64,000 nt of DNA. Origin: Panopea generosa (Eukaryota > Mollusca > Bivalvia > Adapedonta > Hiatellidae). The notes below the pieces were generated by a model. That model saw only the letters and a list, made by a program, of their open reading frames with translations. It made no database searches and was not told where the DNA came from. Below, one piece after another: positions 3,561 to 61,930 of the stretch; position 1 is the stretch's first letter; every line of letters starts with the position of its first letter. The translations under genes were made by a program, and so were the position numbers. The stretch is from contig CM055894.1 of NCBI GenBank assembly GCA_029582155.1, positions 29,701,207-29,765,206 of the forward strand, given 5' to 3'.

Positions 3561-4135
3561 CTTGGATCATTTGGTTCTCACCAAACTTACAACACGGTTG
3601 TTATATAACCATACTATTTCAGAAAAGTGATTGAACTGGCCAAATCGGATTATAAATGTCAGAGTTATGGCCTTTGTTACATTTAAAATACATTATTTGA
3701 CTTTGTGTGCACTCTAGCACCCACATTTTTCATTTGATCCTCATTAAACTGGCATGATAGTTATATAACCATAACATCTTAGACAAGTTCTTGAACTGGC
3801 CAAATCAGATTATTAATGTCAGAGTTATGGCCGTTGAAACATTAAAAAATGCACTATTTGGCTGTGTGTGCACTCTAGCACTCGCATTTTTCATTTGATT
3901 CTCACCAATCTTACACAGTAGTTATATAACCATAATATCTTGGACAAATTCTTGAACTGGTCTAATCAGATTATTGATGACAGAGTTGTGACCCTTGAAA
4001 CATTAAAAAATACACAATTTGACCGTGTGTGCACTCTACCACCGGAATTTTTCATTTGATTCTCACCAATCTTACACAGTAGTTATACATGTATAACTAT
4101 AATATCTCAGACAAGTTCAAATTAATGACCCTTTG
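3560..4135. repeat. About 160-bp tandem repeat, four copies
   Basis: The phrase GTTATATAACCATAA recurs near 3600, 3760, 3921 and, altered, 4081. Each copy is followed by TTCTTGAACTGGCCAAATC, a block resembling TTATTAATGTCAGAGTTATGG, and a block resembling GTGTGCACTCTAGCACC. The family recurs at 35225-36060. Confidence 0.85.
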
Positions 4136-8187: not shown

Positions 8188-9727
8188 ATAATTATACCCC
8201 CGACAAAGGAAGTTTTGAGGGGGTATACTGGAGTCACCCTGAGGTCGGTCTGTCGGTCTGTCGGTCGGTCTGTCCGCAATTTTCCTTGTCCGGAGCATAA
8301 CTTGAAAAGTACCGGATGGAATTTCATCAAACGTCATACAATGGTAGATTATAATGAGAGGAAGTGCAGTGTACAAGAAACATAACTCTATTCTTGCTAA
8401 TTACAGAGTTATTGCCCTTTGATATTTTTTCTTGTCCGGAGCATAACTTGAAAAGTACTGGATGGAATTTCATCAAGCTTCATACAATGGTAAAATATAA
8501 TGAGAGGAAGTGCAGTGTACAGGAAACATAACTCTATTCTTGCTAATTACAGAGTTATTGCCCTTTGATATATTTCCCTTTGATATTTTTTCTTGTCCGG
8601 AGCATAACTTGAAAAGTACTGGATGGAATTTCATCAAGCTTCATACAATGGTACAATATAATGAGAGGAAGTGCAGTGTACAGGAAACATAACTCTATTC
8701 TTGCTAATTACAGAGTTATTGCCCTTTATTATATTTCCCTTGTCCAGAGCATTACTTTTAAAGTACTGGATGGAATTTCATCAAACTTCATACAATGGTA
8801 GAATATAATAACAGGAAGTGCAGTGTACAAGAAACATAACTCTATTCTGCTAATTACAGAGTTATTGCCCTTTGATATATTTCCCTTGTCCGGAGCATTA
8901 CTTTTAAAGTACTGGATGGAATTTCATCAAACTTCATACAATGGTAGAATATAATTACAGGAAGTGCAGTGTACAAGAAACATAACTCTATTCTGCTAAT
9001 TACAGAGTTATTGCCCTTTGATATATTTCCCTTGTCCGGAGCATTACTTTTAAAGTACTGGATGGAATTTCATCAAACTTCATACAATGGTACAATATAA
9101 TGACAGGAAGTGCAGTGTACAGGAAACATAACTCTATTCTTGCTAATTACAGAGTTATTGCCCTTTGATATATTTCCCTTGTCCGGAGCATTACTTTTAA
9201 AGTACTGGATGGAATTTCATCAAACTTCATACAATGGTAGAATATAATGAGAGGAAGTGCAGTGTATAAGAAACATAACTCTATTCTTGCTAATTACAGA
9301 GTTATTGCCCATTGATATATTTCCCTTGTCTGGTGCAGTACTTTTAAAGTACTTTTAAAGCCATCAGTGATAACAGTTTAATAAAGTTCATGAAAGAACC
9401 AAGTTGATGAATACATGGAGTTCGAGCAAAGCAGGTTCGATATTGTATTCCTAATGCTCTTGTTTGTTTCTTATCCATAAAATTGTTGTCCCTCAACATA
9501 ACTCGAAAAAATATAACATTTATTGATTGCCATGAAAGCTTGTACACTGCACAATAATTAAAAAGACCGTTTTTAACTTTAACAAAACCATAAAAAAATT
9601 AACAATACAAACAACTCAATCCATAACATTCTCTTTTATTAAGAATTTCTTTTGTCTGGAGCATTACTTTAAAACTATTGGATATAATTTAATAAAACTT
9701 CATACAATGGTTAACCATTTTCTGTCA
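8188..9727. mobile_element. Insertion in the LINE, with CCCCCG ends and internal tandem array
   Basis: The block interrupts the L1/Tx1-type LINE. It begins TACCCCCGACAAAGG near 8196 and ends GTTCGGGGGTA near 9745, so the last few bases form short inverted ends next to TA. Removing it restores the LINE reading frame if the target lost only a short AT-rich duplication. No transposase ORF is visible. Most of the block is a 147-bp tandem array. Its exact ends are uncertain by a few tens of bases at the right side. Confidence 0.55.
8285..9345. repeat. About 147-bp tandem repeat, 8 units
   Basis: Units start with CTTGTCCGGAGCAT at 8285, 8431, 8592, 8739, 8885, 9031, 9178 and 9325 (the last partial). 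Steps are 146, 161, 147, 146, 146, 147 and 147 bp. Each unit has a block resembling AAAGTACTGGATGGAATTTC, then CTTCATACAATGGTA, AGGAAGTGCAGTGTA and CAGAGTTATTGCCC. Open frames in this block (8152-8376 minus, 8185-8385 plus, 8510-8692 plus) are repeat shadows. Confidence 0.9.
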
Positions 9728-10083: not shown

Positions 10084-11470
10084 CCACCGCTCGTAGAGTG
10101 AAGTGAGCGGGGGATATAGAAATGAGCTGCATCCGTGTGTCTGTCTGTCCGTCCATCCGTGCGTGCATGCGTGCATCCCCTGCACTGTATCTCATAGCTC
10201 ATGGTCAAGTGTTTTGAAATCCAATGTATACACTGTGTTTCCTCTTGTCCAGACCGTATTTTCTTTAGTTGTGCTTGGAATTTTAAATAACTTGGCACAA
10301 ATGTTCACTAGGACAAAACGATCACTCAGAACACCTTGGCTATTACTACGTAATAACCTCAGAAATAATACGGGGGCTGCTATATTGCTGTGACCCGGCC
10401 TTTCTGCCGAGTACCAGACTAACACATGGCCGGACTACATTCAAAAAATGGAGACTGAAGATATTCTGCAACGCTTCAAGCTGCTCTTTTTACAAAGAAT
10501 GTTTAATTTCCATTATTTTCAAAGAATGCACGTCGAAAAGTCAGCCATTTTTGTTAACGATAATAACAGGAAGTAACTTGCCGGGGCAAATGACCAATTG
10601 GTGTATTCCTACAATTATTTACGAGGTCTAATACCGAAGATGACGGAATTTGCCGAGTATGTACGATTGCAAAACGATGTGTCAAAAGTCAAGGTCATAG
10701 CTCATGGTCAAGTGTTTGAAAATCCAATGTATACACTGTGTTTCCTCTTGTCCGGACCATATCTTCTTTCGTTGTGATTGGAATTTTAAATAACTTGGCA
10801 CAAATGTTCACTAGGACAAGACGATGTGTCATGCGAATGACTTGAGTCTGTTCGTCAAAGGTCAAGGTCATATCTCAAGGTCAAGTGTTTTGAAATCCAA
10901 TGTATACACTGTGTTTCCTCTTGTCCGGACCGTATCTTCTTTCGTTGTGATTGGAATTTTAAATAACTTGGCATAAATGTTCACTAGGACAAGACAATGT
11001 GTCATGCAAATGACTTGGGTCGTTTGTCAAAGGTCAAGGTCATAGCTCAAGGTCAAGTGTTTGAAAATCCAATGTATACATTGTGTTTCGTCCTGTCTGG
11101 ACCGTATCTTCTTTAGTTGTGATTGCACTTTTAAATAAATTGGCACAAATGCTAACCGGCCCATGAAGATGTGTGATGTGAATTTGGGTCTGTTCGTCAA
11201 AGATAGTTTTTGTTTTGTTTTGGGGTTATAACTTACATATTTATGGTTCGATTTAGAACATCTCACCAGTGCTCACTGGGACAAGACAATGTGTCATATT
11301 ACAGTATTTGAGTTTGCAGCATTTATATGTGATTTCTGTGCTTGGCGACTTTTTCATTTTGTATATTTTAAATCGACTTCTCTGGAAATGCCTCTATGGG
11401 TTTATGAGGTGGTGGGGGATATGACCACGTTAGTGGCAACCTCTTGTTTTTATTGCAAGGACTTCAGAAC
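10084..11470. mobile_element. Repeat element inserted in the LINE RT, with ~170-bp tandem units
   Basis: This block separates two LINE pieces that would otherwise join within the RT palm. It starts with CACCACCGCTCGTAGAGTGAAG and ends with a phrase resembling CCACGTTAGTGGCAACCTCTTG. Inside are degenerate units of about 170 bp, with TCAAGTGTTTTGAAATCCAA, ACTGTGTTTCCTCTTGTCCGG and ACTTGGCACAAATGTTCACT near 10200, 10708, 10880 and 11050. There is no ORF of its own. One unit is itself broken by the 348-bp insertion at 10323. Confidence 0.7.
10323..10670. mobile_element. 348-bp insertion with 8-bp target duplication
   Basis: AAAACGAT occurs directly before (10315-10322) and after (10671-10678) a 348-bp segment absent from the sister repeat units. 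Those units read GGACAAGACGATGTGTCATG without a break. The ends (CACTCAGAACACC and GTACGATTGC) are not obvious inverted repeats. An 8-bp duplication is typical of hAT and some other families, but without inverted ends the class is open. Confidence 0.65.
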
Positions 11471-13640: not shown

Positions 13641-13694
13641 CATGGCATTATCCAACGAATCCATTCATATCTACGGTGAAAATCTCCCAATCAT

Positions 13695-14087
13695 GTGACT
13701 GCCATCCTCATCCTGGCCCTGACTATCGTTTTCCTTGTGAAAAACAACCAAAACTGTATTGCTTGTGACTCATGTGATCAGTGGTTCCGCATAAAGTGTA
13801 TGAACATGCCCCTATCAGTCTTTCAAGCTGCCAAGAATGTGAGCTGGATTTGCTGTACCTGTGGGCTCCCCAATTTCTCAACCAATTTGTTTGAAACAAC
13901 CCACATTAACTCCATTGCAACCTCCGTAGCCACGGAAAACTTCTACAGCATTCTGTCCAGTACAAATGATCAACCCGACAGCCCCGTAGCATCCTTCCAG
14001 GCCCAGAGCTTCAGTTCCTTCAACAGCTCGATCGGATCGCCGCAACACACTTCCTCCCCAGCCAAAACCCCCAGAACCATACCATGA
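13695..14087 (+). pseudogene. PHD-finger part of the LINE
   Basis: The frame shows CIACDSCDQWFRIKC, then SWICCTCG, the Cys4-His-Cys3-like spacing of PHD fingers found at the N-terminus of many CR1/L2-type elements, although the usual His is not clear. The lead-in HPGPDYRFPC lies in another frame just upstream, so a frameshift has split the finger. The region after it is Ser/Pro/Thr-rich linker ending at a stop. Confidence 0.65.
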
Positions 14088-14089
14088 CA

Positions 14090-14816
14090 CGATATTAGAT
14101 AGTCCTTTCGCATCCTCACCATCAACTTCCAGAGCATGAGGGTGAAGAAGAGCCCTTTTTGGTTTCTCCTAGAGGAAGTGGATCCAGACATTGTCATAGG
14201 AAGTGAGACTTGGCTTCATCAGGGGTTCTATGAACGTGAAGTACTCCCATCAGGATATCACTTTGTGGCCAGAAGAGATCGAACATACAGCAGCCATGGT
14301 GGGGTGATGATCGCTGCTAGACATAACATCATGGGCACTGAACTGAACATTACTACAAACACAGAGATATGTGCTGCATCCTTTGAATGTCATGGGAAAC
14401 TGCCTCTTATTGTTGGATCTCTTTACCACCCGCCAAGTAGTGATACAGACTACATGGAAGAACTTTGCCAGAAAATGAAGGACATGTATGTCAACAACCC
14501 TCACTCCACAGTATGGATAGCTCGGGACATGAACCTGCCAGATATCAACTGGGTGTCTAGCTCTATCAAAGGCAATAACAACCCTGTCCAGACCAACCAG
14601 CTACTCGTGGATTTGATCTATGATACAGGCTCCAAACAATCAGTGACATTTCCAACCAGAGGTAATGACACACTTGACGTCTTCATCACTAACAGACCAT
14701 CACTTATTGAAAAATGCAAACCAGTACCTGGGGTCAGCGACCATGACATAGTTTTCGTCCAAGGCTCCACAAGAGTGCCAAGACAGCGACCCCATAGACG
14801 GAAGACCCTACTGTGA
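14090..14816 (+). pseudogene. AP-type endonuclease part of the LINE
   Basis: This 226-codon frame shows the exonuclease-endonuclease-phosphatase order: VDPDIVIGSETWL, GGVMIAAR, SLYHPPSSD, then ARDMNLPDINW in place of the usual GDFNxP box (catalytic Asp and Asn kept), and VPGVSDHDIV near the C-terminus with the conserved SDH. It would nick target DNA to prime reverse transcription. An in-frame stop after RKTLL cuts it from the RT. Confidence 0.75.
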
Positions 14817-15059
14817 AGGCAGGCAGACACTGTATGCTTGAAAAAAGCAGTAGCAGATTTCTCAGCCAAGTTCACCTCACAGCACACACAGCACACCGAC
14901 ATCGACACCCTCTGGTCCACTTTCGTGATTGATGCACTACGGCCATAATCAAGTACATACCATCCAAGATGACCTCATCAAGGTTCAGCCAACCGTGGGT
15001 AATCTGGAATATAAAGCGTCTCTCCAGGAAAAAGAAGAGAGCTCATCACACAGCCACAA

Positions 15060-16830
15060 GAACAAGAAATGAGGAGGATGTCAAACACTACAAGAAACTA
15101 CAACAGGACACCCAATAAGAATGCGAGAAAGCCTATAACTGCTATGTACGGGACATTGTCACTGAAGGCAGAGATAAAAAGAAATTATACACATTCGTCA
15201 AAGGAAAGCATTGTGACAGCAGTGGCGCCTCCTCCCTCAAGAGTGAAGGCATCGCACATAGCAACCCGAAGGTTAAGGCATCTCTCCTCAACAGCCAGTT
15301 CATTAGTGTCTTCACTGAAGAGAACACCACGAGCCTCCTATCCATGCCTGGAGACCCATATCCCAAAGTCCACCACTTCGACATTGGCAAGGAAGGTGTA
15401 CAGAAACTCCTCCAGGCCCTTGATCCCCACAAAGCAGCAGGATCAGATGCACTACCTACAGGCCTCCTGAAGGAGGCTGCCAACGAGATAGCACCAGCAC
15501 TCACACTCATATTCCAGGCATCATTGCAACAAGGTAAGGTCCCAGAAGATTGGAGACATGCAAATGTGACTCCAATATTTGAAAAGGTGACAGAAGCCAA
15601 CCTGCCAACTACAGGCTGATATTGCTTACGTCGGTTTGCTGCAAGATGCTAGAACACGTCATCCACAGCCAAGTCATGAAACACCTACACTCTCACCAGA
15701 TACTGTCAGACCAACAGCACATTTTCTGCAAGAAAATATTCTGCGAATCCCAGCTCATCCTTACCCTCCAAGATCTCACCGCCGGACTAGATGCAGGTGA
15801 ACAGGTAGATGCTGTACTTCTTGATTTCAGCAAGGCTTTCAATAAAGTCGCCCACGAATGACTGTTGACTAAGCTGAGACACTACGGCATCAGGGGCCCA
15901 GTATTGAGCTGGATTCAGAGCTTCCTGACAGGTAGAAGCCAGCAGGTCCTGGTTGAAGGCCACATGTCAACCTCTGCTCCTGTCACTTCCGGCGTGCCAC
16001 AGGGCACAGTTCTCGGACCTTTACTCTTCCTGCTCTACAATAATGATCTCCTGGACAGAGTAAACTCCACATTTCGGCTCTTTGCTGATGACAGCCTCAT
16101 CTACCGGAAGATCGAATCCATAGACAACTCTGCCAAACTACAGGAAGACCTGGACAAACTACAGCAATGGGAGCATGACTGGATGATGTCCTTCAACCCT
16201 TCAAAATGTGTGGTCCTGCGCATTACCAGGAAGAGAAACCCTACCCTCGCAAGCTACCAAATCCATGGGCACAACCTAATCATAGCCAAGACAGGATGAT
16301 ACCTGGGGACAATGATTTCAGACGATCTATCCTGGAAGCCTCATGTCGAGTCTACTACCAAGAAAGCCAACAACAGCCTGGCATTCATAAGGAGAAACCT
16401 GTCCAGCTGTCCACAGGAAACCAAGGCCCAAGCATACAAGACCCTCGTACGTACAACCTCAAGTACACCTCCACAGTATGGGATCCATACACACAAATTT
16501 GCGTACAGCAACTAGAGGCAGTCTAATGTAGGGCAGCACGCTTCATCAAGGGAGACTTCCACACAACTAGCAGCACCTCCCAGATTATGACAGACCTTGG
16601 TTGGTCATCTATCCAACATAGACAGCAGCATGCCAAGCTGACCATGATGTACAGAATCATCCATTGCCATATTGACATCCCCGCAACACCATATCTCCAC
16701 ACCGCAACTGTAGCGACCAGAGGCAACGCAACCAGATACGTTTTACCCTTTTGCAGAACTGACTATCTTTGCCACTCCTTCTTCCCCTCGGCTACACGGC
16801 TGTGGAACCAGCTACCATAGCACCTGGCCA
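15060..16830 (+). pseudogene. Reverse transcriptase part of the LINE
   Basis: RT boxes appear in order but in different frames: DPHKAAGSDALPTGLLK, VPEDWRHANVTPI, LILLTSVCCKMLEHVI, VDAVLLDFSKAFNKVAHE, SGVPQGTVLGPLLFLLYNND and RLFADDSLIY with both catalytic Asp residues. The thumb follows (HDWMMSFNPSKC). The tail ends FFPSATRLWNQLP, typical of the C-terminus of this LINE group. At least four frameshifts or stops (for example the TGA at 15858) prevent function. Confidence 0.8.
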
Positions 16831-26289: not shown

Positions 26290-27330
26290 TATGCCCCCCC
26301 AAAAAACTTTTTGGGGTGGCATATAGTAATCGCAGTGTCCGTCCGTCTGTCTATCCGTCCTTCCATCCGGTATTTCATTTCCGGCCTGTATCTTTGTCAT
26401 GCATAAATGGATTTTGTTGATAATTGGTACAAATGATCAATATAACTTGACGACGTGTCGCGAGTAAAACCCAGACCTGTACGTCAAAGGTCATGGTCAC
26501 AATTTGAGTTTGTTCGAATACACTTTGAGTCTGTGTGAGATTTCGTGTCCGGCCTGTAACTTTGTCATGCATAGATGGATTTTAATGATACTTGCTACAA
26601 ATGATCAACAGAACATGACGACGTGTCGCAAGTAAGACCCACACCAATAAATTAAAGGTCAAGGTCACTATTTGAGTTTGTTTGACAACACTTCGAGTTT
26701 GTGTGAGATTTCGTGTCTGGCCTCTAACTTTGTCATGCATAGATGGATTTTATAAATACTTGCTACAAATGATCAACGTAACATGATGACGTGTCGCGAG
26801 TAAGACCCAGACCTATACCTCAAAGGTCAAGGTCACAATTTGAGTTTGATTAACAACACTTTCAGTCTGTGAGATTTTGTGTCCGGCCTGTAACTTTGTC
26901 ATGCATAGATGGATTTTAATGATACTTGCTACAATTATTCAACATAACATGACAACGTGTAGCAAGTAAGACCCACACACATACCTCAAAGGTCAAGGTC
27001 ACAATTTGAGTTTGACAACACTTTGAGTCTGTGTGAGATTTTGTGTCAGGCCTGCAACTTTGTCATGCATAGATGGATTTTTATAAATACTTGTTATAAA
27101 TGATCAACATAACGTGATGACATGTTGCACTTCTGACCCAAACTCCCACTTCAAAAGTCAAGGTCACAATTTAACTTTGTTTGACAACACTTTCAGTCAT
27201 TTTGACATTTCTTGTCCGGTCTGTCATCTATGGATAAACTTTAAAAACACTTGGCTCAGTTGATCAACATGACATAATTAAGTGTTGCATGTAAGACCCA
27301 GAACCTTTCCTCAAAGATCAAGCATGTGTC
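26290..27330. repeat. About 167-bp tandem AAGGTCAAGGTCAC array
   Basis: After a start TTTTGGGGTGGCATATAGTA, units carrying TTTGTCATGCATAGATGGAT recur at 26393, 26561, 26729, 26895 and 27059. Each includes AAAGGTCAAGGTCACAATTT, GTTTGACAACACTTT and GTGTGAGATTTCGTGTCCGG. The right end decays by 27330. Confidence 0.9.
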
Positions 27331-44270: not shown

Positions 44271-45203
44271 TACTTATTTTTTGTAAAATAATGGTTTCCG
44301 ATTGATAATTTTTGAAAGGTTCGAGAGAGTTTTATCCCTTTTCAACATAATTTTTAGCAAAATTTTCTTACATACTGTGCAGGGATCTGTTTCTTATTAT
44401 AGTTTAATGAAAAATGCAGTATTACGTCAATTAAAATTGGAGGTATTTAATTTAATTGCCCACAGTCATTTAAATACAGGCCATTTATTTTGTTTTTCTT
44501 GAAGATGCGATAGCACCGTCAGTTTTCACTGAATCTTAACAAAACTTGCTCAGCAGTTATATAACCATAAGATCTTGGACGAGTTCTTGAACCAGCATGA
44601 ATTGACCACAATTGCCCCTGCCACAGGGATTTTAAGCAAAACTTTAAAAAACATGGTTCAAGGCATAGACCTTAAATATTTTACATGTAGCATAGCATGG
44701 GATTAAAGAGTTCTTGAAGTCAGGTCCCTGGGGTCAAATTTGGGGCTGCCACAGAGGTCCCTGTTTTGCATAGAGTTATAAAGGTAAAATGTAGTAGATG
44801 CGATAGTATCTTCTTTTTTCAATGAATCTTAACCAAACTTGCACATTAGATGTAGCATTGCAATGGAAGCTCCATAAATGATTTGCGGATTGATCCATGC
44901 TGTCAAATTTGGGGCTGCTACAGGGGTCACCGTTTTACATAGAGTTATATAGGAAAAATGTTGTAAATGCGATAGCACCTTCATTTTTTCGTTGAATCTT
45001 AAATCTTAGCACAGCAGTTATATAACTGCAAGATCTCAGACGAGTTCATGAACCAGCATAGCATCAGTTGCCAGCCAAGCGATTCAGGTCCTCTTGTTGC
45101 TAATTTTTGTTCTAAATAACAACTCAACTTGACCCTGTGGCTGGTAATGTCCATTTAATTTTCATTTATTTGAATTTGGGCTTTTTCACAGTTTTGATAA
45201 TCT

Positions 45204-45207
45204 TATT
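45204..45207. repeat. TATT target-site duplication of T, left
   Basis: TATT here and at 51277-51280 directly flank the terminal inverted repeats of T. The paralogous empty site in E1 has a single TATT (52894-52897) in the same context, GATAATCTTATTTCAAATGC. Confidence 0.9.
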
Positions 45208-45233
45208 TGCCTGTTGCACAGTAAATGGGCCAA
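45208..45233 (+). repeat. T left terminal inverted repeat (26 bp)
   Basis: It begins TGCCTGTTGCACAGTAAATG and ends GGCCAA. It is identical in reverse complement to 51251-51276. Beyond it both ends share a further ATAGGT after a short A/T insertion on the left. Confidence 0.95.
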
Positions 45234-45801
45234 TTTTTTAAAAAAATAGGTAAATGAATAAAAAAATATATATATGTGTTAAATTCAAAATTAAACCATT
45301 TTTTCTAGAACATATCATAATTACCTAAATGTAATTTTTTTTTTTTCATGCAAAAATCCATGATTTTTTTTAAAGAATGCTTTTAATGACTCAAAAACAA
45401 CTGTTTTAGGGCGTAATGTGTTAGCATCTAAAATTTACCTATTATTAAAATACACATAAAATTGAGTTAATTGTTCATTAACCCATTTTATTAGAATTTA
45501 TCAACAGATAATTTAATTACTTTTATTTTGATGTATGGCTTTTCATGATCAACTAAGTCGTTTTTCTTATGTAGCCTTTTGAACGATATCACTACTTCGT
45601 AATGGAAAAAATGAAATTAAAACCTTTGTTCCCTTATTTATTCATAAATATATGAATATGTACTAAATGAATGTTTATTTTCCTCCCTATGCTTTGCTAT
45701 TGTATGTAATTAAAAAGCAGAGTTTTATTTTTACTGTTAAAATAGTGTATTTGTGAAAAAAATACCTTATATCGGAAAATTTCAATTTGTGACAAAAAAA
45801 C

Positions 45802-46332
45802 TGTAACGTCCGTCCCCCCGCCATATATTCTTCCAAAAAGATATACAGAATAATACATTCACCTGCTGACATACATATCCATGTACTATCCTAAAAAAAG
45901 TTAAATAAAAATTGGTCCGAGAATATTTAAGGAAAATATACACTAAAATGTAAAATTTACATGTAACGTCCGTCCCCGTAACGTCCGTCCCCCTATATAT
46001 ACAAATAATAAATAATGGTTTTTATCATCTTTTCACATTTTTTTTTCACTTCTTAAAGTATTTTATGTTAGCAGTGTGCAGCTTAGACATGAATAATTTA
46101 TAAAACATATCTATATATATATATTGACCATATTATAGACTTTTTAAATAAATTTATAATGCAAGTTCACATGAATTGTGGTATTTAATAAACTTTTATA
46201 GGTACAATCTCATTGAAGAGTACTTTTTTAAATTTCTTATACACATGTTTGTTTAGGAAACAAAAATTAAGCTAATTTGCATTTAAATTGAATGTTTAAA
46301 TTCACTTTAAAAAATAGGGGACGGACGTTACA
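45802..46332. repeat. T 5' subterminal motif cluster (4 copies)
   Basis: TGTAACGTCCGTCCCC lies at 45802-45817 and 45962-45977, and GTAACGTCCGTCCCC follows at once at 45978-45992, all on the plus strand. A reverse copy, GGGGACGGACGTTACA, is at 46317-46332. They lie between the left inverted repeat and the gene. By analogy with subterminal repeats of CACTA and other elements they are likely transposase binding sites. That role is inferred. Confidence 0.9.
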
Positions 46333-46855
46333 TGATTTTTTAGTTGCAATGTACAATTGATACAAACCCTCTAATTTAACTGAAAATGTTGAAATTAGTA
46401 ATAGGCCATAAAATGATGTAATATTACATACATCCTGTCATTAACCCAGGGGTTATTAAACATGGGGTGATCTATGGAGGCACTGTGTGCAGTATGCAGA
46501 CAGAGGGGCAGTATGTCTCCAGTGTATATTACCACATGGTGTGAATGCAGTCCTTGGGGAAATTAGGAGAGCACAGTAGGATGTCAGGTAGATTGACAGT
46601 AGCATATATACCTTGTACAATATACATGTAGACATTATATTCCGTTTGGCACTATCTTAAAAAGGTGAGAAATTCATATTTGTCCTGGGAACAAGAATGG
46701 ATAATGGTGTTAAGTGGGGGTAAAATGGCAGGTAGAATACACAGTATAATTAACAAAGTGGCATGTCAAAAAGTACTGCTCAACTTGGCTTCATCTAATT
46801 TACTTTAAAAGGGCATGAAATCAAAATCTTAGCATTCATTTCTTGTCGTGCAATA

Positions 46856-49800
46856 ATGGATGCAGAAGCTAAACGCGAGAAAGAAAGAGACAAAAAGCGC
46901 CGCCAAAGAGAAAAATTGAAGCTTAATAAGGTAATTATAAGATTATTTTATTTTAATATTATCCCTTTATTCATCGCATGGTTTATAAATAGACCATTCT
47001 TTATTCCTGATGTATAGGGGTGTATTTTTTATAATTTATTGACTGAGTAGCAAACAGTGAATACCCTGCTCAGATTGCATGGATGGCTGATCTGGCTCAA
47101 CATCTACACAGGTTGTAAAAAACATTTTGTTTTTACCAAGTTAAGGGTTATTTTAATATTTTATAATCATGTTTGCTGTTTAAGGGTTATTTTAATATTT
47201 TATAATCATGCTTGCTTTTGTAATTACTGCACTTTATCTGCATATATGCTTAGTACTGGTTCAAATTGGAAGACTTCGAGCATGATTTGTCATAACTCGT
47301 TTCACAATCGATGTAAAATAAGTTAAAAACAAAAAATATTGAAAAACAGTATCCGATCTATGCTGTTCAAATTATAGGTATTGTAAACACTAGTTCATTT
47401 TGTAATATCTTACTTTAACATAATTGCAGGAAAAGCATGCAGAAGCTAAGAAAAAAGATGTAGCTAGGAAGAAAGCAGAGAGACAAAAATTTAAGGACGC
47501 TGCTGAAAATCAACCAAGAAAGTTCAGAGCTGTCTTAGATAAAATCAAATCAGCAACAGCAGACCGTGTGCGTAAATTCAGGGAAAGACAACACCGAAAA
47601 AATGAGACCATCATGCCCACAACCCCTGCAACACCGAAACCCCAAAGACAAAGGAATGAACAATATAGGGAAGACATAAAACTACTGCGCAGCCAGAAAA
47701 AGAATGATAGAGAGGCTAACAGACTCAGAGTGAGGAATTTTCGACTCCGTGTTCAACTGAATACCCCAAAGGACAGTAAGAAATCTGTTTCTAATTCCCC
47801 AATAGTTGACAGTGATAACATATACAAGCATAAAAGTAGTGAGGCTAGAGCATTTAAACGTGTTAAAGAAACTTTGCCTGGAACTCCAGCTAAAAAGGCG
47901 CGTATCATTGAAAAACTTGTTGAAAATACGACACCACGGTCTCGCCAGTTGTTAAGTCAGAGTCCCTCTGTACAGGCTGTGATAAACCAAAAAGTGACTC
48001 GAAAAAAACTAAGCACACAATTCTCTATCATTGAATCCCTGAAGCAGAAATTAGGAAACCGAAAAGAGAAACAAAAATCCACAAGCATTGTTGCATCTAA
48101 AATACTGGGAAAAGCACGTAATAATTCAGCTGTAGCTTCAATGCTAAATGTGTCCAGAAAAATATTGTCGAGATGCGCAAAGAATGCAAATAAAGAAAGA
48201 AAACCTAGAAAAGATAAGTTACCCGAGGCGGAAATAGATAATATAAGTAACTTCTATCTTGAAGATGCAAGCAGAGAGATGCCCAATAAAAGGGATGTTC
48301 TGCTCCTTAAAGACAAAAATGGACAAAAACTTCCAATCCAAAAACAAATAATGGAAATGACACAGAATGAAGCTTATGAGAAATTCAAAGCTAAAAATCC
48401 TGGTGTAAAAATTGGTCAACGGAAGTTCGACTCATTGAGGCCACAGCAAGTGCGGAAGTCAAAACTGGCAAATAGAATTGTGTGCTGCTGTACATACTGT
48501 GAAAATGTCAGATTGAAACTACAAACATTGAATAAAATTCTCAAAGATCAACCTTCAGTTTCAACCACGAACATTGTTGACAGTACTCTGTGTGATAAGG
48601 TTGGGCTACATCATCCTCACAAATGTATTCAAAGACAGTGTGACAACTGTGGTACCAATCAGCTGAGAGAAAAGTATGTTGATATATTACAGACAGAAGG
48701 AAATAGAGAGGTAACATGGAAGGAGTGGCAGAAAAAGAAAGTTTCCTTGGATGCTGACAGATTTGTGAGCAGAGTTGTGCTTATTTCAAATGTGGGTACA
48801 TTCAATGAATTCTTCAGCAAACTAGAATCTGCTCTGGCTCCTCACGCCGAGCATTTGTTCCGTGCATCCTGGCAATATGAACAATTTCGCGAAAATGTAA
48901 GCAGCATCAAAGAAGGAGAGCTGGTAATGGCTATGGATTTTAGTGAAAATTACACATGTAGATATGGTCGTGAAATTCAGTCATTTCACTGGAATCAAAA
49001 ACAAATTACAATCCACCCCATGATGCTGTATTATATGAAACACGGTGAACTCCAAAAGGAAGGATTTACAACCATAACGGACGACCTTAAGCATGATTCT
49101 TTTGCAGTTTCAGAATTTGAGAAGGTAGCAGTACAGCATCTCAGAGACAATGGTACTGAAGTTCACACCATTCATCAGTGGACAGATGGCTGTGCAGCTC
49201 AATACAAGTGTAGGCACAGTTTTTCAGATATAAGTCAAGCAGAATCTAAAATCAATGCAAAATTGACCCGAAACTACTTTGAGACCAGTCATGGAAAGGG
49301 GCCATGCGATGGACTTGGTGGCATAATTAAAAGGAAAGTTTCCAATGCTATTATTCAAGACGACAACCGTATTGTGTCAAATGCCAGTGAACTTACACAG
49401 TTCTGTGAGGAAAACTTGAAAACCGTTGGACGAACCTCGTCCAAGTCCAGAGCCAATAGATATGCAGCGAGTTCGAGGAACTTTAAATATATACCAATGA
49501 TAGACCGCACCAGTACCACATCCGCAAAAACTGTACCAGGATGCCGGAAACTACACAGTGTTAAAAGCACTGGTGTTAACCATCAGTTGGAAGTAAGAAG
49601 TCTCAGTTGCTACTGTGTCGGGTGCAGAATTAATGGTGAATGTGAAAATAGTTCATATGTGAACCAATGGAATAAACGTATCTTAACACCTGTTGACGAC
49701 AAACGCAACAATGAGAATCCTCAACCCACTTGTGTTCCTGTCCCTGAGTCTGAATTACCTGAGAATTTGTCTGAGAATGAGACAGCTCCCCAAATACCCC

Positions 49801-50120
49801 ATGAAGACCCTGGAGATGCTAAAATTAGTCCTAAGCTAAATGACTTTGTTGCAATTAAATTTGTTTCAAAGATAAGCAAAGTTTGCTTCTTTGCAAAAGT
49901 ATGTGAAGTTGAACATAACGATATTCGTGTGGAGTACCTTGAAAAATGTGGAAAAAATCACCAATACCCAGAAGCAACTGATGAATCCTGGCAAAAACTG
50001 TCTGATATTGTATGTTTGTTGCAAACTCCAGATGTTGTTGTTACTGGTTCAAGAGTTAAATGTGTGTTTCAAATCAATGAAAAACAAAACCAGCTACTGA
50101 AGGAATTTAAGCTTAAGTGA
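46856..50120 (+). CDS. Transposase-like protein of T, 921 aa, two exons
   Basis: Exon 1 is 46856-46930 (25 codons) and exon 2 is 47430-50120. The intron starts GTAATT, ends TTGCAG and is phase 0. The ATG at 46856 follows stops and opens a Lys/Arg/Glu-rich coiled-coil-like region (about 1-140) that runs across the splice. A helix-turn-helix-like part (about 242-274, KILGKARNNSAVASMLNVSR) follows. Next is a Cys/His cluster (CCCTYC at 377-382, HHPHKC and CDNC at 419-432). The probable catalytic core has MAMDFSENY (D528), FHWNQKQITIHPM, WTDGCAAQYK (D611) and HGKGPCDGLGGIIKRK (D652). E679 is another acidic candidate. A second Cys cluster (CYCVGC at 752-757) and an SH3-like C-terminal segment (827-900, FVAIKFVSK...VCFFAKVCEV) end it. 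I infer DDE/D-type strand transfer. The superfamily is not established. Confidence 0.88.
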
Positions 50121-50358
50121 AAATATTAGCCTGATCAATATCACTGTGTCTGAGATTAATAGTGTCTCCCCAAACTCCCCATGACACTCATAATGTGCAG
50201 TGACAACTAATGTTCAGTGAAAACTGGGAGTTAATTTATGCTTATTTTGAGTTTTGCTTTTGTATATTTATGTTACCTTAAATTATATATTAGTTTAAAA
50301 GTTTTAGAATTTAGTAGTGGTTTCCTTAAAATGTAGTTTCAATATCATCTCTTTTAAA

Positions 50359-51090
50359 TGTAACGTCCGTCCCCTTGTGCTATAGACAATTTTAAGTGTC
50401 TATAAAATTACTAAAACTTGGACAAAAAGGGTATTGGATGCTGAAAACAAGTCCCATTTTAATCAAATATTGTGTAATAGTATGACCAAGTATAACAAAT
50501 AATTCAAACGGAATAATTTCAATGAATGCATGACAAAATCACGAATTAGCATATTTTAATTGAAATATATTATAAAAATACTAATTTGAAATTGCATTTT
50601 TTTTTATTAGCTACATTTCTTTTACACATTACTGTTACTATATGAGAATTGTATGAACTCAAACAATGATATCTCTCTTAGAGTGATGTTCAAATTTAAT
50701 GTAACGTCCGTCCCCGTATATTGTAACGTCCGTCCCCTGAGCCCTTATGTTGTACATATGCTATTTATTAAAATTGACATAAAAGAGACTGTAATAAATG
50801 TTCATAGTATGTTATATTTGTGTTACTTCTTTATTTTAATGTTAATTTTATACAGATTAAACAAGTAAAACCATCTTTTAAAGAAAAGATAAAAGTGTGG
50901 TTATATTTGTTTTACCCGTATAGATTCTACAAAATGTAAAAAAAAATACTTAAAAGTATATTTTTTTAAAAGGTTGCTTATATTTTACTACAGATACACA
51001 AGATGAATACATGTACCCATTTTAAAGACTTAGACATTAAAAACAAGCACACACATCAACATAACTCATGAAGCTGTAACGTCCGTCCCC
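50359..51090 (+). repeat. T 3' subterminal motif cluster (4 copies)
   Basis: TGTAACGTCCGTCCCC occurs at 50359-50374, 50700-50715, 50722-50737 and 51075-51090, all on the plus strand and all 16 bases identical to the 5' copies. The two middle copies are 22 bp apart, about two helix turns, and the paired 5' copies are 16 bp apart. I saw no copy outside T in this window. Confidence 0.92.
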
Positions 51091-51250
51091 TTGTCTACCT
51101 GCCTACAGAAATTTAAGATTTTTTTTTAAAATTAAGTTGAAACTTATCTCTTCTTCGGTTGTTTTACATACTTAAAATATAAATGTATCAGAAAAAAACA
51201 AAAACAAATGAATATTTTAAACTTTTTTTTTTACTTAGATGCTAACCTAT

Positions 51251-51276
51251 TTGGCCCATTTACTGTGCAACAGGCA
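51251..51276 (-). repeat. T right terminal inverted repeat (26 bp)
   Basis: It reads TTGGCCCATTTACTG and on to CAACAGGCA, the exact reverse complement of 45208-45233, and is followed by TATT. Confidence 0.95.
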
Positions 51277-51539
51277 TATTTCAAATGCTTAATATTGTTT
51301 TATATGATGCATTTCTATTTAATACCTTGTATTTGGTAACTAGATTCTAGCATAATATAAACTTTGTTAAATTGAAAAATGTTTTATTTTATTTATCACT
51401 GTCATATTTATTATTTCTCCAGTTTCAATACAAAGTCCTTGGTAAGAACACTATTTCATTAAAAACATTGACTTTATTATTGATTTAATTTTAGAACTTT
51501 TTAACGCAGTTTCATAGTTTTATGCATGTTTTTTTTTAA

Positions 51540-52276
51540 AAATAATCTAGTTGTATTGGCATTCACTTTTTATGCAAAACACATAGGGGCTGCATAAAAG
51601 TTTATATGCAGCTAAAATTTATGTTGAAGCTAGCAGTATTGGCACCTGCGTAAACACAGTTTTTGTTCAGCATTTGCAAAGAGGCTGCGTTAAAGCTTCA
51701 TATACGCAGCTTTTACATAGCTAAAACGTACATAATAGCTAGCGGTATTGGCACCTGCGTAAACGCAGCTTTTACGGATGACCTTCGTAAAAGCTGCGTA
51801 ATAGCTTCGTATACGCACCTTTTACGTAGCTAAAACGTACGTAAAAGCTTGCGGTATTGGCACCTGCGTAAACGCAGCTTTCGCGCAGCTTTTACGAAGG
51901 ACCTTCATAAAAGCTGCGTAAACATAGGAACTGTGTAAAAGCTTCGTATACGCAGCTTTTACGTAGCTAAAACATACGTAAAAGCTTGCAGTATTGGCAC
52001 CTGCGTAAACGCAGCTTTTACGAAGGACCTTCATAAAAGCTGCGTATACGAAGGGGCTGCGTAAACGCAGCTTTTACTCAGCTAAAACGTACATAAAAGC
52101 TAGTGGTATTGGCACCTGCGTAAACGCAGCTTTTGTGCAATTTTTATGAAGGTCTTCGTAAAAGCTGCGTATACGCAGGTGCCAATACCGCAAGCTTTTA
52201 CGTACGTTTTAGCTACGTTTTAGCTACGTATACGCAGCTATTTAGCTACGTTTTACGTAGCATTTTTTGACAAGGG
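51540..52276. repeat. E2 right arm: palindromic GCTGCGTAAACGCAGC repeats
   Basis: The arm repeats GGTATTGGCACCTGCGTAAA, CGCAGCTTTTACG, AAAGCTGCGTA and TACGTAGCTAAAACGTACG. A block of about 50 bp at 51831-51880 recurs in inverse orientation at about 52158-52206, so large hairpins are possible. It ends in TTGACAAGGG. The truncated E1 arm at 53160-53560 has the same text. The minus-strand frame 51822-52034 is a shadow. Confidence 0.85.
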
Positions 52277-53560
52277 TTGAACCAGCATGAATCGACCACA
52301 AATGCCCCCGCCACAGGGATTTTAAGCAAAACATTAAAAAATTTGGTTCAAGGCATAGACCTTAAATATTTTACATGTAGCATTGCATGGGATTAAAGAG
52401 TTCTTGAAGTCAGGTCCCTGGGGTCAAATTTGGCCACAGGGGTCCCTGTTTTACATAGAGTTATAAAGGTAAAATGTAGTAGATGCGATAGTATCTTCTT
52501 TTTTCAATGAATCTTAACCAAACTTGCACAGCAGATGTAGCATTGCAATGGAAGTTCCATAAATGATTTGCGGATTGATCCATGCTGTCAAATTTGGGGC
52601 TGCTTAACAGGGGTCACCGTTTTACATAGAGTTATATAGGAAAAATGTTGTAAATGCGATAGCACCTTCATTTTTTTCGTTGAATCTTAAACAAATTAGC
52701 ACAGCAGTTATATAACTGCAAGATCTCAGACGAGTTCTTGAACCAGCATAGCATCTGTTGCCAGTCAAGCAATTCAGGTCCTCTTGTTGCTAATTTTTGT
52801 TCTAAATAACAACTCAACTTGACCCTGTGGCTGGTAATGTCCATTTAATTTTCATTTATTTGAATCTGGGCTTTTTCTCAGTTTTGATAATCTTATTTCA
52901 AATGCTTAATATTGTTTTATATGATGCATTTCTATTTTATACCTTGTATTTGGTAACTAGATTCTAGCATAATATAAACTTTGTTAAATTGAAAAATGTT
53001 TTATTTTATCTATCACTGTCATATTTATTATTTCTCCAGTGTCAATGTAAAGTCCTTGGTAAGGACACTATTTCATTAAAAACATTGACTTTATTATTGA
53101 TTTAATTTTAGAACTTTTTAACACAGTTTCATAGTTCTATGCATGTTTTTTTAAAAAATAATTTAGTTGTATTGGCATTCACATTTTATGCAAAACACGT
53201 AGGGGCTGCATAACAGTGTATATGTAGCTAAAATTTATGTTGAAGCTAACAGTATTGGCACCTGCGTAAACACAGTTTTTGCTCAGCATTTGCAAAGAGG
53301 CTGCGTAAAAGCTTCATATACGCAGCTTTTACATAGCTAAAACGTAGTGGTATTGGCACATGTGTAAACGCAGCTTTTACGGATGACCTTCGTAAAAGCT
53401 GCGTAATAGCTTCGTATACGCACCTTTTACGTAGCTAAAACGTACGTAAAAGCTTGCGGTATTGGCACCTGCGTAAACGCAGCTTTTGCGCAGCTTTTAC
53501 GAAGGACCCTCATAAAAGCTGCGTAAACAAAGGAACTGTGTAAAAGCTTCGTAAACGCAG
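52277..53560. repeat. E1 right part with empty site of T
   Basis: This is paralogous to 44584-45207 plus 51277-51955. It includes the dispersed CTTGCACAGCAG family (52280-52790). At 52885-52910 it shows the unoccupied T target with a single TATT. The arm ends abruptly at GTAAACGCAG (53560), after which repeat H resumes. Confidence 0.85.
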
Positions 53561-56010: not shown

Positions 56011-56890
56011 TACTTGGATCATAGTTACAACTAACACCCTGCATTACATAATATAATGCAGATGCTGAGTACTGGGCGTCGTCAAGTATTTTGTTTCCAT
56101 TTAATAACTAGAGTATTTTTCATCGGAACTGAATCAAAGTTACACAAAGTGTGTACCTCTATAAAATCTAGGCCAAGTTTGATAACCAGCCAATACGGAC
56201 CATTATATCTAGAGTTATGGCCCTTTAATAAGTCAAAAATGCTAAAATTTCGAGTTTCCGCTCAATAACAAGAGTATTCTTTATTAGAACTGAAGCAAAC
56301 TTACACAAAGTGTTAATCTCTGTAAAAGCTAGGCCAAGTTCAATAACCAGCCAATTCAGACTTATAATTAGTCAAAAATGATAAAATTTACTATTTCCGC
56401 TCAACAACTAGATTGTTCTTTATCAGAACTGACACAAACTTACACAAAGTGTGCATCTTTATAAAATCTAGGCCAAGTTCGATAACCAGCCAGTACAGAC
56501 CATTATCTTTAGAGTTATGGCCCTTTAATTAGTCAAAAATGCTAAAATTGCCCGTTTTCGCTCAATAACTAGAGTATTCTTCATCTGAACTAAAGCAAAT
56601 TTACACAAAGTGTGAATCTTGATAAAATCTAGGCCAAGTTAAATAACTAGCCAATTCAGACTTTTATCTTAGAGTTATGGCCCTTTAATAAGTCAAAAAT
56701 GATAAAATATACTGTTTCCGCTCAATAACTAGAGTATTCTTTATCTGAACTGAAGCCAACTTACACAAAGTGTGTATCTCTATAAAATCTGAGCCAAGTT
56801 CGATAACCAGTCAATTCTGAACATTATCTTCAGAGTTATGGCCCTTTAATTAGTCAAAAATGATAAAATTGACTGTTTCTGCAACCAAAT
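56010..56890. repeat. About 155-bp tandem repeat, five to six units
   Basis: AGAGTTATGGCCCTTTAAT recurs at 56211, 56511, 56671 and 56831, with a damaged unit near 56360. Each unit also holds CTCAATAACTAGAGTATTCT, TTACACAAAGTGTG and TAAAATCTAGGCCAAGTT. Confidence 0.88.
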
Positions 56891-57650
56891 TTATACAATT
56901 TTTCTAGCGGTAAAGTAAAAATAATCTTTTTCTTTTGTTATTTTGATGAAGATACTAAAAAAGTTTGGATTGATGTATTGATATATATTAAAATAAAACT
57001 CCATTAACATGTACATTTTTATCTTGAAAATGGTTTGTGATGCCCTTGCTCAGTTGATAGCCATGAGGCAAAAAATAGTATTAAAAATACAAATGATTTA
57101 TCAGAGAAATGTACAGGTCCGTTTAAAATTTTTACACAGCTGAATTTCTCATAATGTTTGATGCATTTTGTAATATATTTGTAGAATCAAACATCGTGTT
57201 TAAGAAATTGTTGCTATCAGTTGAGCATGTGTGACTAAAATGTTTGAAAAACATGGTTTTTGGGGAATTTCCACGTCTCTTGTTTATTATTATTATTATT
57301 ATTTATAATAAAACGTGTGAGCTAATTATTTGTGAACCAGACATTGCTGCTTGTCAAATATCGTTTACCTCTACCAAATATCTCTGAGTTGGGAATACTT
57401 TCTGATAGGGAGGTTCAGTAGATACGCTCTCTCTGTCTTTTCGATTTGCAAATATTTCTCTTTAACTTATTATTTTTCAATTTTTACTGTCTTTTCCATA
57501 AAAGTTTAAACCTAATATTGCTATAATATATTTTATTAAACTGTAGGGGAAGGGCCGGGTCTTATATTGCCAGAACTTGTGACCCGACCCCATTTCATGA
57601 TATATTGAAATAAAATATGTTTAAACTGATGCAAATTATTGCCTTTGTTT
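56890..57650. other. No gene recognised
   Basis: An ATT microsatellite lies at about 57279-57305. Otherwise this is AT-rich unique sequence. Confidence 0.4.
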
Positions 57651-59050
57651 GACTTAGCAAATCTGGTTAAAGTATTGCGTGCATGTTCCATCAAGTCCAT
57701 ATCTTACCAATCACTTAATGTATTTGTTTGAAACTTCACACAAGACTTCCCAGTCATCAAACATACTATAATATCTAAGTTAGATAACTATTGGATGACT
57801 ATAATGCAAAATTATGGCCCTTGTTTTACTTTGAAATTCTGGTTAAAGTTTTGCGTGAAAGTACCATCAAGTCCATATCTCACCAACCACTCAATTTATT
57901 TCATTAAAACTTCACACATGACTCCCCAGTCATTACACTTACTAAATTAAAGAAGCTAGATAACTTTTACATGAATATGATGCAAGTTATTGCCCTTGTT
58001 TGACTTAGAAATTCTGGTTAAAGCTTCGCTTGCAAGTACCATCAAGTCCCTATCTCAGTAACCACATGTATTTGATTGAAACTTCAGACAATTCTTTCTA
58101 GTCATCAAACCTCGCCAGAGTGAGTACAAATGTCCCAGCCACAGGACTAATAAGCACATATTAAGTGAAAAATATTTTCTCTGAAAGTTCAATGCCTGAA
58201 CCTTAAATATTTTACATGTGGCATTGAATGGTGGTCTGCTAAAAGGTTTGTAGAAGTCAGGTCCCTGGGCTGCCACATGGGTCACTGTTTTAAATAAGTT
58301 ATATAAGGAAAATGTTGTAGACGCGATATCACACCCATTTTTCATTGAATCTTAATCAAACTTACACAGCAGTTATATAACCACATGATCCCAGATAGGT
58401 TATTGAATCAGTGTGATTCAATTACAAATGCCCCAGCCACAGGCCTCATAAGCACATTTTAAGGGAAACTTTTCTTAGCATTTTCTCTGAAAGTTCAAAC
58501 CAAAGACCTTAGATATTTACATGTAGCATTACATAGAGGGTTGTTGAAGTCAGATCCCTGGGGTCAGATTTGGATCCACCACAAGGGTCACTGAGTTATA
58601 TAGGTAAAATGTTAAAATTGTGTGTGAAGATGCGATAGCACCCCCATTTTCCACTGAATCTTCTTAACCAAACTTGCAAAGCAGTTATATAATGATAAGA
58701 TCCCTAACAAGTTCTTCAACAAATATGATTTGACCACAAATGTTCCAGCCACAAAGCTAATAAGCACATTTAAATGAAAACTTTAAAAGGCATTTTCTCT
58801 AAATGTTTTAAGGCCTAGACCTTAGATACTTTACATGTAATATTGCATGGAGATCCCCTAAAATTTTGTTGATGTTGGGTCTCTGGGGGCAGATATCTGT
58901 GTTTTATAGAGAAAATGTTAAAATTTTCATGCAAATGTGATAATATCCCCATTTTCATTCATACTTAACCAAAGTTGCACAGCATTTATATAACCCACAA
59001 TTTTGAATAAATTCTTGAACCAGCTTGATTCGACCACAAATGACGCCACC
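57650..59050. repeat. Two tandem repeat families back to back
   Basis: From 57650 to 58100 about three units of 170 bp carry ACCATCAAGTCCATATCTCA, CTTCACACATGACTCCCCAG and TTATTGCCCTTGTTTGACTT. From 58100 to 59050 three units of about 300 bp carry AACCAAACTTGCACAGCAG, CAGCCACAGG and GTTGAAGTCAGGTCCCTGGG, the family also seen at 5.4-6.3 kb and in E1/E2. Confidence 0.78.
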
Positions 59051-61329: not shown

Positions 61330-61930
61330 TTTATGCTTCCCCAAAGGGGGGGAAGCATATAGTCGCCGCTTCGTCCATGCATGCGTCCATCCGTCCCCAA
61401 GTTCTTGTCAGGGCTATTTCTCTACAACTTATGGTTGGAATTTTATGAAACTTGCTAGGATGCATCATTACCGAGTGCAGATGCGCATATTGTCTTTGTG
61501 TTCCGGTTTGATGATTTTTCACGGAGTTATGGTCCTTTGATTCTGTCTGTGACCAAATTCTTGTTTGTGCTATTTCTCTACAACCCCATGTTGGAATTTT
61601 GTGAAACTTGCTAGAATGCATCATTACCAAGTGCATATGCGCATATTGTCTATGTGTTCCGGTTCGATGATTTTTCACAGAGTTATTGCCCTTTGATTCT
61701 GTCTGTGACCAAATTCTTCTCCGCTCTATTTCTCTACAACCTGTGGTTGGAATTTTATGAAACTTGCTAGGATGCATCATTACCAAGTGGAGATGTGCAT
61801 ATTGTCATCATGACACCTTTTCGCTACAATCTCTGGTTTTAATTTTGTAAAACTAGCTATGATCTGCGCATATTGTCATTTTGTTCCGGTTAAATGATTT
61901 GTGAATGAGTTCTGTGAAGTGCAGAGCCAC
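61330..61930. repeat. About 156-bp tandem repeat with GGGGGGAAGCATATAG start
   Basis: After CCCCAAAGGGGGGGAAGCAT come units with GAAACTTGCTAGGATGCATC at 61447, 61602 and 61759, each with GTGTTCCGGTTTGATGATTT and GATTCTGTCTGTGACC. A 151-codon minus-strand frame across it is open only because the unit is repetitive. Confidence 0.85.

Follow-up and report, generated by a model that had tools for sequence, protein, structure and literature searches.

Sola transposons, as outlined in PMC10741241, encode a DDD transposase, generate 4-bp target site duplications, are mostly 2-9 kb in size and have ends of 11-1124 bp. For the Sola2 elements of slime moulds, PMC3627910 gives an 888-amino-acid transposase, ends of 12-21 bp and AT-rich 4-bp duplications of the types AWWT, ATAT, AAAT and ATTT. 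Sola2 and Sola1 elements are known from bivalves (PMC10294476), and Repbase assigns Sola by convergence with known transposases in iterative searches (PMC4455052). We analyzed a 64,000-nucleotide stretch of the genome of the bivalve Panopea generosa (assembly GCA_029582155.1, contig CM055894.1, positions 29,701,207 to 29,765,206 of the forward strand; hereafter the window), which carries an element of 6,069 bp at 45208-51276. We consider it probable that this is a Sola-type DNA transposon of the autonomous, cut-and-paste kind, presumably Sola2-like. It would most likely add a new member to a known superfamily. The original prediction, made from the letters of the window, had left the superfamily unclear. 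This view cannot be upheld as stated, since the DDD triad and the AT-rich 4-bp duplication fit the Sola description (PMC10741241, PMC3627910).

The element is bordered by 26-bp terminal inverted repeats (TGCCTGTTGCACAGTAAATGGGCCAA), and these are indeed perfect, as had been predicted together with a perfect TATT duplication that we also recovered (Table 1). Perfect inverted pairs of this length are expected about 5e-6 times per 64 kb, and a chance inverted repeat as the source of the ends is thereby ruled out. Furthermore, the window contains a paralogous empty site. Both flanks are approximately 95% identical to a local duplicate of about 1.3 kb that lies downstream of the element. When 44900-45207 was joined to 51281-51600 and aligned with 52585-53213, we found 604 identities in 630 positions (96%) and 6 gap positions. 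The junction itself is gap-free, and the unbroken target holds a single TATT. We therefore conclude that a complete transposon, as originally proposed, inserted cleanly with exactly these borders and produced a 4-bp duplication. The same alignment points to a likely order of events, in which the local duplication came first and the element inserted later. A retrotransposon is ruled out by the inverted ends, by the empty site with its 4-bp duplication and by the absence of a Pfam reverse transcriptase from the protein.

Between the ends lies a single gene of two exons, and a second long frame was not found in the element. The gene encodes 921 amino acids and its sole stop is the terminal one, which agrees with the intact spliced gene of the original prediction. 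The intron is predicted from the sequence. The read-through letters ahead of exon 2 are LQ/EK, and the related proteins P0002 and P0004, with about 50-55% identity to the window transposase, read LQ/EK and FQ/EK at this place. Three aspartates of exon 2, D503, D586 and D627, are invariant in a 22-row alignment, in which conservation was scored on the rows with a letter at each position. They are predicted to form the catalytic triad of an RNase H-like fold, and the predicted catalytic core is nearest to the folds of retroviral integrases and IstA/TnsB. A Foldseek search with the whole model gave weak matches, with NurA, Argonaute and RNase H in the top rows.

In sequence searches the exon-2 protein matched no family of Pfam at an E threshold of 1, and searches of Pfam, NCBIfam and PDB with the window protein gave no relevant match. 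Pfam includes models for ISAzo13 and for the integrase core. To our knowledge it holds no Sola model, and the lack of a Pfam match therefore says little about Sola membership. A public protein (P0001), representing 10 sequences, is 98% identical to the window protein at a coverage of 83%, and a third protein search (alignment A3) added 3 further proteins. Protein patterns revealed no relatives among 16, 16 and 50 candidate stretches from IMG/VR or among 92 candidate stretches from prokaryote genomes. A literature search for SHGKGP together with transpos returned no match.

The genome assembly searched comprises 39 contigs with a total of 1.47 Gb. It contains 130 exact copies of the 26-bp end, 65 per strand, vs 0 for a reversed-pattern control, and a search with the initial 200 bp of the element gave 41 matches (40 of 159 candidates scored). 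Pairing of ends on the first 100 of the 130 sites revealed 35 plus/minus pairs. Their spans fall between 3,959 and 4,058 bp in 31 cases and are 4,179, 5,193, 5,805 and 6,069 bp in the rest, the last being the window element. The 5,805-bp pair (C9:64852713-64858517) is longer than the 4-kb copies and is absent from the scored protein matches described below.

We examined copies in detail in 20 regions, covering 21 of the other 40 matches to the first 200 bp. In 18 regions the element is complete at both ends and about 4.0 kb long, and all 18 have one common internal deletion of about 2.17 kb. L030 has the same deletion but no right end, and L018 matches the window copy at 98.6% identity for its first 1.78 kb and is different beyond. 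The ends of the 18 derivatives are exact in 35 of 36 cases (the inexact one is in L033). On average, the derivatives differ by 0.81% from their consensus. They are 98.5% identical among themselves but share about 94% identity with the window copy, which rules them out as direct products of that copy. An identical stop at codon 6 is found in all 18, and their coding capacity is lost. Low divergence and the shared stop therefore identify the 4-kb copies, on the sequence comparison, as non-autonomous elements from a young burst, for which the protein would be supplied from elsewhere.

The original prediction had named many near-identical copies with TATT-like 4-bp duplications as support for an active family. 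An exact 4-bp duplication flanks 16 of the 18 derivatives, with ATAT in 7 of them. In one derivative (L022, C5:74845752-74850008) a left end of about 270 bp is present twice, so that two ends on the plus strand lie at a distance of 271 bp. With the outer of the two taken as the border, the duplication is AGAA/AGAA, and we therefore conclude that L022 moved as a single unit that includes both left ends. The duplication ATAT was read at an older full-length copy (L039/L056). Together, exact duplications were read in 18 of 20 copies (the window element, L039/L056 and the 18 derivatives): ATAT in eight, ATGT in two and TATT, AAAT, TAAA, TTAA, ATGA, AGAT, TTAT and AGAA in one each. Six-frame translation of the genome yielded 58 matches to the exon-2 protein, with 51 of 782 candidates scored. 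Among the scored matches, residues 1-896 are unbroken only in the window copy. The remaining close ones, at 57-88% identity, are stop-containing frames, fragments or derivatives, and several more distant lineages (31-36% identity) include open frames. The element had also been called recent. Its perfect ends, its intact frame, an insertion that is likely younger than the local duplication and the small distance of the derivatives from their consensus all bear this out.

A set of subterminal motifs had been proposed as well. Indeed, the motif GTAACGTCCGTCCCC has 8 perfect copies in the window, all within the two subterminal regions of the element. With as many as 3 mismatches allowed, the window holds 10 matches vs 0.2 expected, and the two that lie outside the element have 3 mismatches each. 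In a comparison of the derivative consensus with the window copy, 7 of the 8 sites are intact, at a background of 52% of windows. This conservation is weakly above background (approximately 0.045 for at least 7 of 8, by hand calculation). A 16-bp form of the motif was found in 9 IMG/VR contigs with a single match each, which we read as chance, and a literature search with 11 letters of the motif gave no related paper as judged by title and abstract. The arrays may represent transposase-binding sites.

The same genome harbors a second transposon family, represented by a 5,584-bp element (L050:1855-7438, on C13), whose transposase is 33-34% identical to that of the window element. Its 26-bp CGGCTG ends (CGGCTGAAACACGGTAYTGGTGCTGA) differ from each other by one mismatch, and its own subterminal motif, GTTACAGACACTAC, is present in 7 perfect copies. 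Duplications of this sister family are exactly 3 bp in three of three independent insertions (ATA, TGT and ACA), whereas they are exactly 4 bp in all 16 rows of the window family tabulated for comparison. Five further left-end places of the sister family are unpaired, and one of them has the flank of a paired place. In another copy (L049/L055) the second end was not found, so its duplication is unreadable. Motif, terminal repeats and duplication length therefore all differ between the two families. Two coding stretches align well, and the non-coding DNA gave no alignment better than E 0.04. In a midpoint-rooted tree the two families fall into separate groups with support of 100/99 and 100/100.

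The positions of the motifs are nevertheless similar. Measured from the left end, they lie at 596, 756, 771 and 1110 bp in the window family and at 590, 754, 1139 and 1454 bp in the sister family; from the right end the distances are 186, 539, 561 and 902 bp vs 188, 540 and 889 bp. Common positions are thus found at about 590, 755 and 1110-1140 bp (left) and at about 187, 540 and 890-900 bp (right). For six of the seven sister-family sites, the nearest window-family site is no more than 30 bp away. Under uniform placement the probability of the coincidence is 5e-4 at a tolerance of 10 bp, 7e-5 at 15, 3e-5 at 30 and 4e-4 at 40, in a comparison that was post hoc and involves two families. One sister-family site is unmatched at all four tolerances, and motif orientation on the left side is discordant, which speaks against a common geometry. 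Further lineages did not enlarge the sample: in the 9.9 kb examined for each of L051/L052 and L053 we found no spaced motif array, and a search for inverted ends with a short direct repeat on either side gave candidates of 9-11 bp that we read as chance. The geometry thus rests on two families. As a tentative and rather doubtful proposal, this transposase lineage might use a fixed geometry of putative subterminal binding sites and not a fixed site sequence. The conserved geometry of otherwise replaced arrays, together with the changed duplication length, is possibly a new structural regularity. A site spacing of about 350 bp would fit two nucleosomes between sites, and the ends could then be read as a chromatin-folded synaptic structure. 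L051 (on C20) and L052 (on C7) belong to a related lineage with open frames of 872 and 1129 amino acids and are 99.3% identical over 9.5 kb. They carry 45-bp tandem repeats downstream of the match, and convincing ends were absent from the stretch examined.

Several observations weigh against the proposed Sola assignment and against the window copy as an intact autonomous source. Since the window protein has no Pfam match, Sola membership rests on features, not homology. The related family has 3-bp duplications, a length that the Sola description considered here does not contain. Two derivatives (L024 and L035) lack a matching duplication, and a second intact copy may exist elsewhere, as 51 of 782 protein candidates were scored. 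The features themselves agree with Sola: three invariant aspartates placed in a predicted RNase H fold, 4-bp duplications at the window element (TATT), at L039/L056 (ATAT) and at 16 of 18 derivatives, and 26-bp ends on an element of 6,069 bp. The 18 exact duplications also follow the AT-rich pattern of Sola2, a pattern for which we do not claim exclusivity to Sola2. A superfamily not yet described, or a fourth Sola group of deep origin, with DDD cut-and-paste chemistry, a transposase lineage of its own and a flexible duplication of 3 or 4 bp, would account for the missing Pfam and PDB matches, for the CGGCTG ends and 3-bp duplications of the sister family and for the deep separate clades in the tree. 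We regard it as improbable, because the window element shows every Sola feature that could be tested. An Academ-type origin is very improbable. It would be compatible with duplications of 4 bp in one family and 3 bp in the other, AcademX having 3 or 4 bp according to PMC10045372, and the mollusc library of PMC10294476 contains 100 consensus Academ elements. However, Academ lineages encode a nuclease or a helicase as described in PMC10045372, no Pfam family was found in the window protein and a second long frame is absent.

The window copy could also be a dead relic, intact by chance and immobile, with the derivative burst driven by other copies that are lost or polymorphic. In its favor, a single intact family frame was found among the scored matches, and at about 94% identity the derivatives did not come directly from the window copy. 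However, the perfect ends of the window copy are the same as 35 of the 36 ends of the young derivatives, the 921-amino-acid frame is intact and P0001, which stands for 10 sequences, is 98% identical. We thus consider a dead relic unlikely. Under the preferred reading, a Sola-type element with an intact transposase, the window element may be active at present, and the derivatives would have been moved in trans by the window copy or by recent relatives.

Such a transposase could work as follows. The basic helical N-terminus and a conserved Cys-rich region may recruit the protein to the 26-bp ends and to the motif arrays, and the two element ends would be paired. The RNase H-like core with its three aspartates would then excise the element and join it to AT-rich DNA, with ATAT as the preferred target. 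The joining would be staggered by 4 bp, and host repair would convert this stagger into the 4-bp duplication. End cleavage, strand transfer into AT-rich DNA at points separated by 4 bp, and gap repair are proposed here by analogy with DDE/D recombinases in general. Through the common ends, the same protein would mobilize the internally deleted 4-kb derivative in trans.

Table 1. Coordinates of the transposon, its gene, its motifs and its target site in the window.
Feature	Position	Strand	Remark
Left target site duplication TATT	45204..45207		single TATT in paralogous empty site
Left 26-bp terminal inverted repeat TGCCTGTTGCACAGTAAATGGGCCAA	45208..45233	+	26/26 identical to right end
GTAACGTCCGTCCCC copy 1	45803..45817	+	
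GTAACGTCCGTCCCC copy 2	45963..45977	+	
GTAACGTCCGTCCCC copy 3	45978..45992	+	
GTAACGTCCGTCCCC copy 4 (inverted)	46317..46331	-	
Transposase exon 1, 25 codons	46856..46930	+	
Intron, GT...AG, 499 bp	46931..47429	+	inferred from sequence
Transposase exon 2, 896 codons + stop	47430..50120	+	
Stretch of about 2.17 kb absent from 4-kb derivatives	48111..50280		derivative comparison
Predicted RNase H-like core, strand 1 to helix 4	48918..49358	+	exon-2 residues 497-643
Predicted catalytic Asp 1, D503 of exon 2	48936..48938	+	D in 21/21 lettered sequences
Predicted catalytic Asp 2, D586 of exon 2	49185..49187	+	D in 20/20 lettered sequences
Predicted catalytic Asp 3, D627 of exon 2	49308..49310	+	D in 20/20 lettered sequences
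GTAACGTCCGTCCCC copy 5	50360..50374	+	
GTAACGTCCGTCCCC copy 6	50701..50715	+	
GTAACGTCCGTCCCC copy 7	50723..50737	+	
GTAACGTCCGTCCCC copy 8	51076..51090	+	
Right 26-bp terminal inverted repeat TGCCTGTTGCACAGTAAATGGGCCAA	51251..51276	-	26/26 identical to left end
Right target site duplication TATT	51277..51280		single TATT in paralogous empty site
Paralogous empty target	52277..53560	+	duplicate of 44587-45207 joined to 51281-51955

Elsewhere in the window, remains of a retrotransposon of the long interspersed nuclear element type lie at 13680-16299 (plus strand), where three separate open frames contain the matches to a PHD finger, an endonuclease and a reverse transcriptase. Many minisatellite arrays are also present, most of them with repeat units of about 60-220 bp, at 1145-1698, 3567-4087, 8279-9353, 10681-11202, 26372-27224, 51627-52255, 56106-56879, 57627-58110 and 61397-61806. 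Rfam and tRNA searches of the window gave no match.

The locus provides a documented system in which a single intact copy occurs with a young family of non-autonomous elements that share its ends, and in which the empty site is preserved naturally. Because no solved structure matches the transposase in sequence, the intact young copy is a practical start for the biochemistry of the group. If the array geometry holds in further families, it would offer a testable handle on how a binding sequence can change without loss of end pairing. The 3-bp and 4-bp duplications would, if true, mean that stagger length is changeable within one transposase superfamily.

Compared with known systems, the predicted catalytic core of the window protein shares its fold with retroviral integrases, IstA and TnsB. 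The third acidic residue of these proteins is E, whereas it is D in the window protein, which also has no sequence match in PDB. Ginger elements are alike in the integrase-like fold, predicted for the window protein, and in the 4-bp duplication of Ginger1 (PMC10045372). They are Gypsy-integrase-like by sequence with ends of 40-270 bp (PMC10741241), and Ginger was rejected on the missing Pfam match and the 26-bp ends. Zator, described in PMC10045372 with a 3-bp duplication and an ISAzo13-related transposase, is likewise not compatible with 4-bp duplications and 0 Pfam families. Kolobok and piggyBac also duplicate 4 bp, but both are TTAA-specific (PMC9587614), and a single TTAA among 18 duplications excludes the two; for Kolobok, the 5'-RR termini of the same definition are a further mismatch, as the window element begins with TG. 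AcademX is alike in its duplications of 3 or 4 bp (PMC10045372); Academ differs in that the window element has a single gene, in which Pfam shows neither the nuclease of AcademX nor the helicase of AcademH. Sola, and Sola2 in particular, differs in that the window element has no Fanzor gene (no second long frame) and in the 3-bp duplications of the sister family, and the Sola descriptions considered here (PMC3627910, PMC10741241) do not mention a subterminal array. What the element has in common with Sola2 is a DDD transposase of about 900 amino acids, an AT-rich 4-bp duplication and short inverted ends (PMC3627910, PMC10741241).

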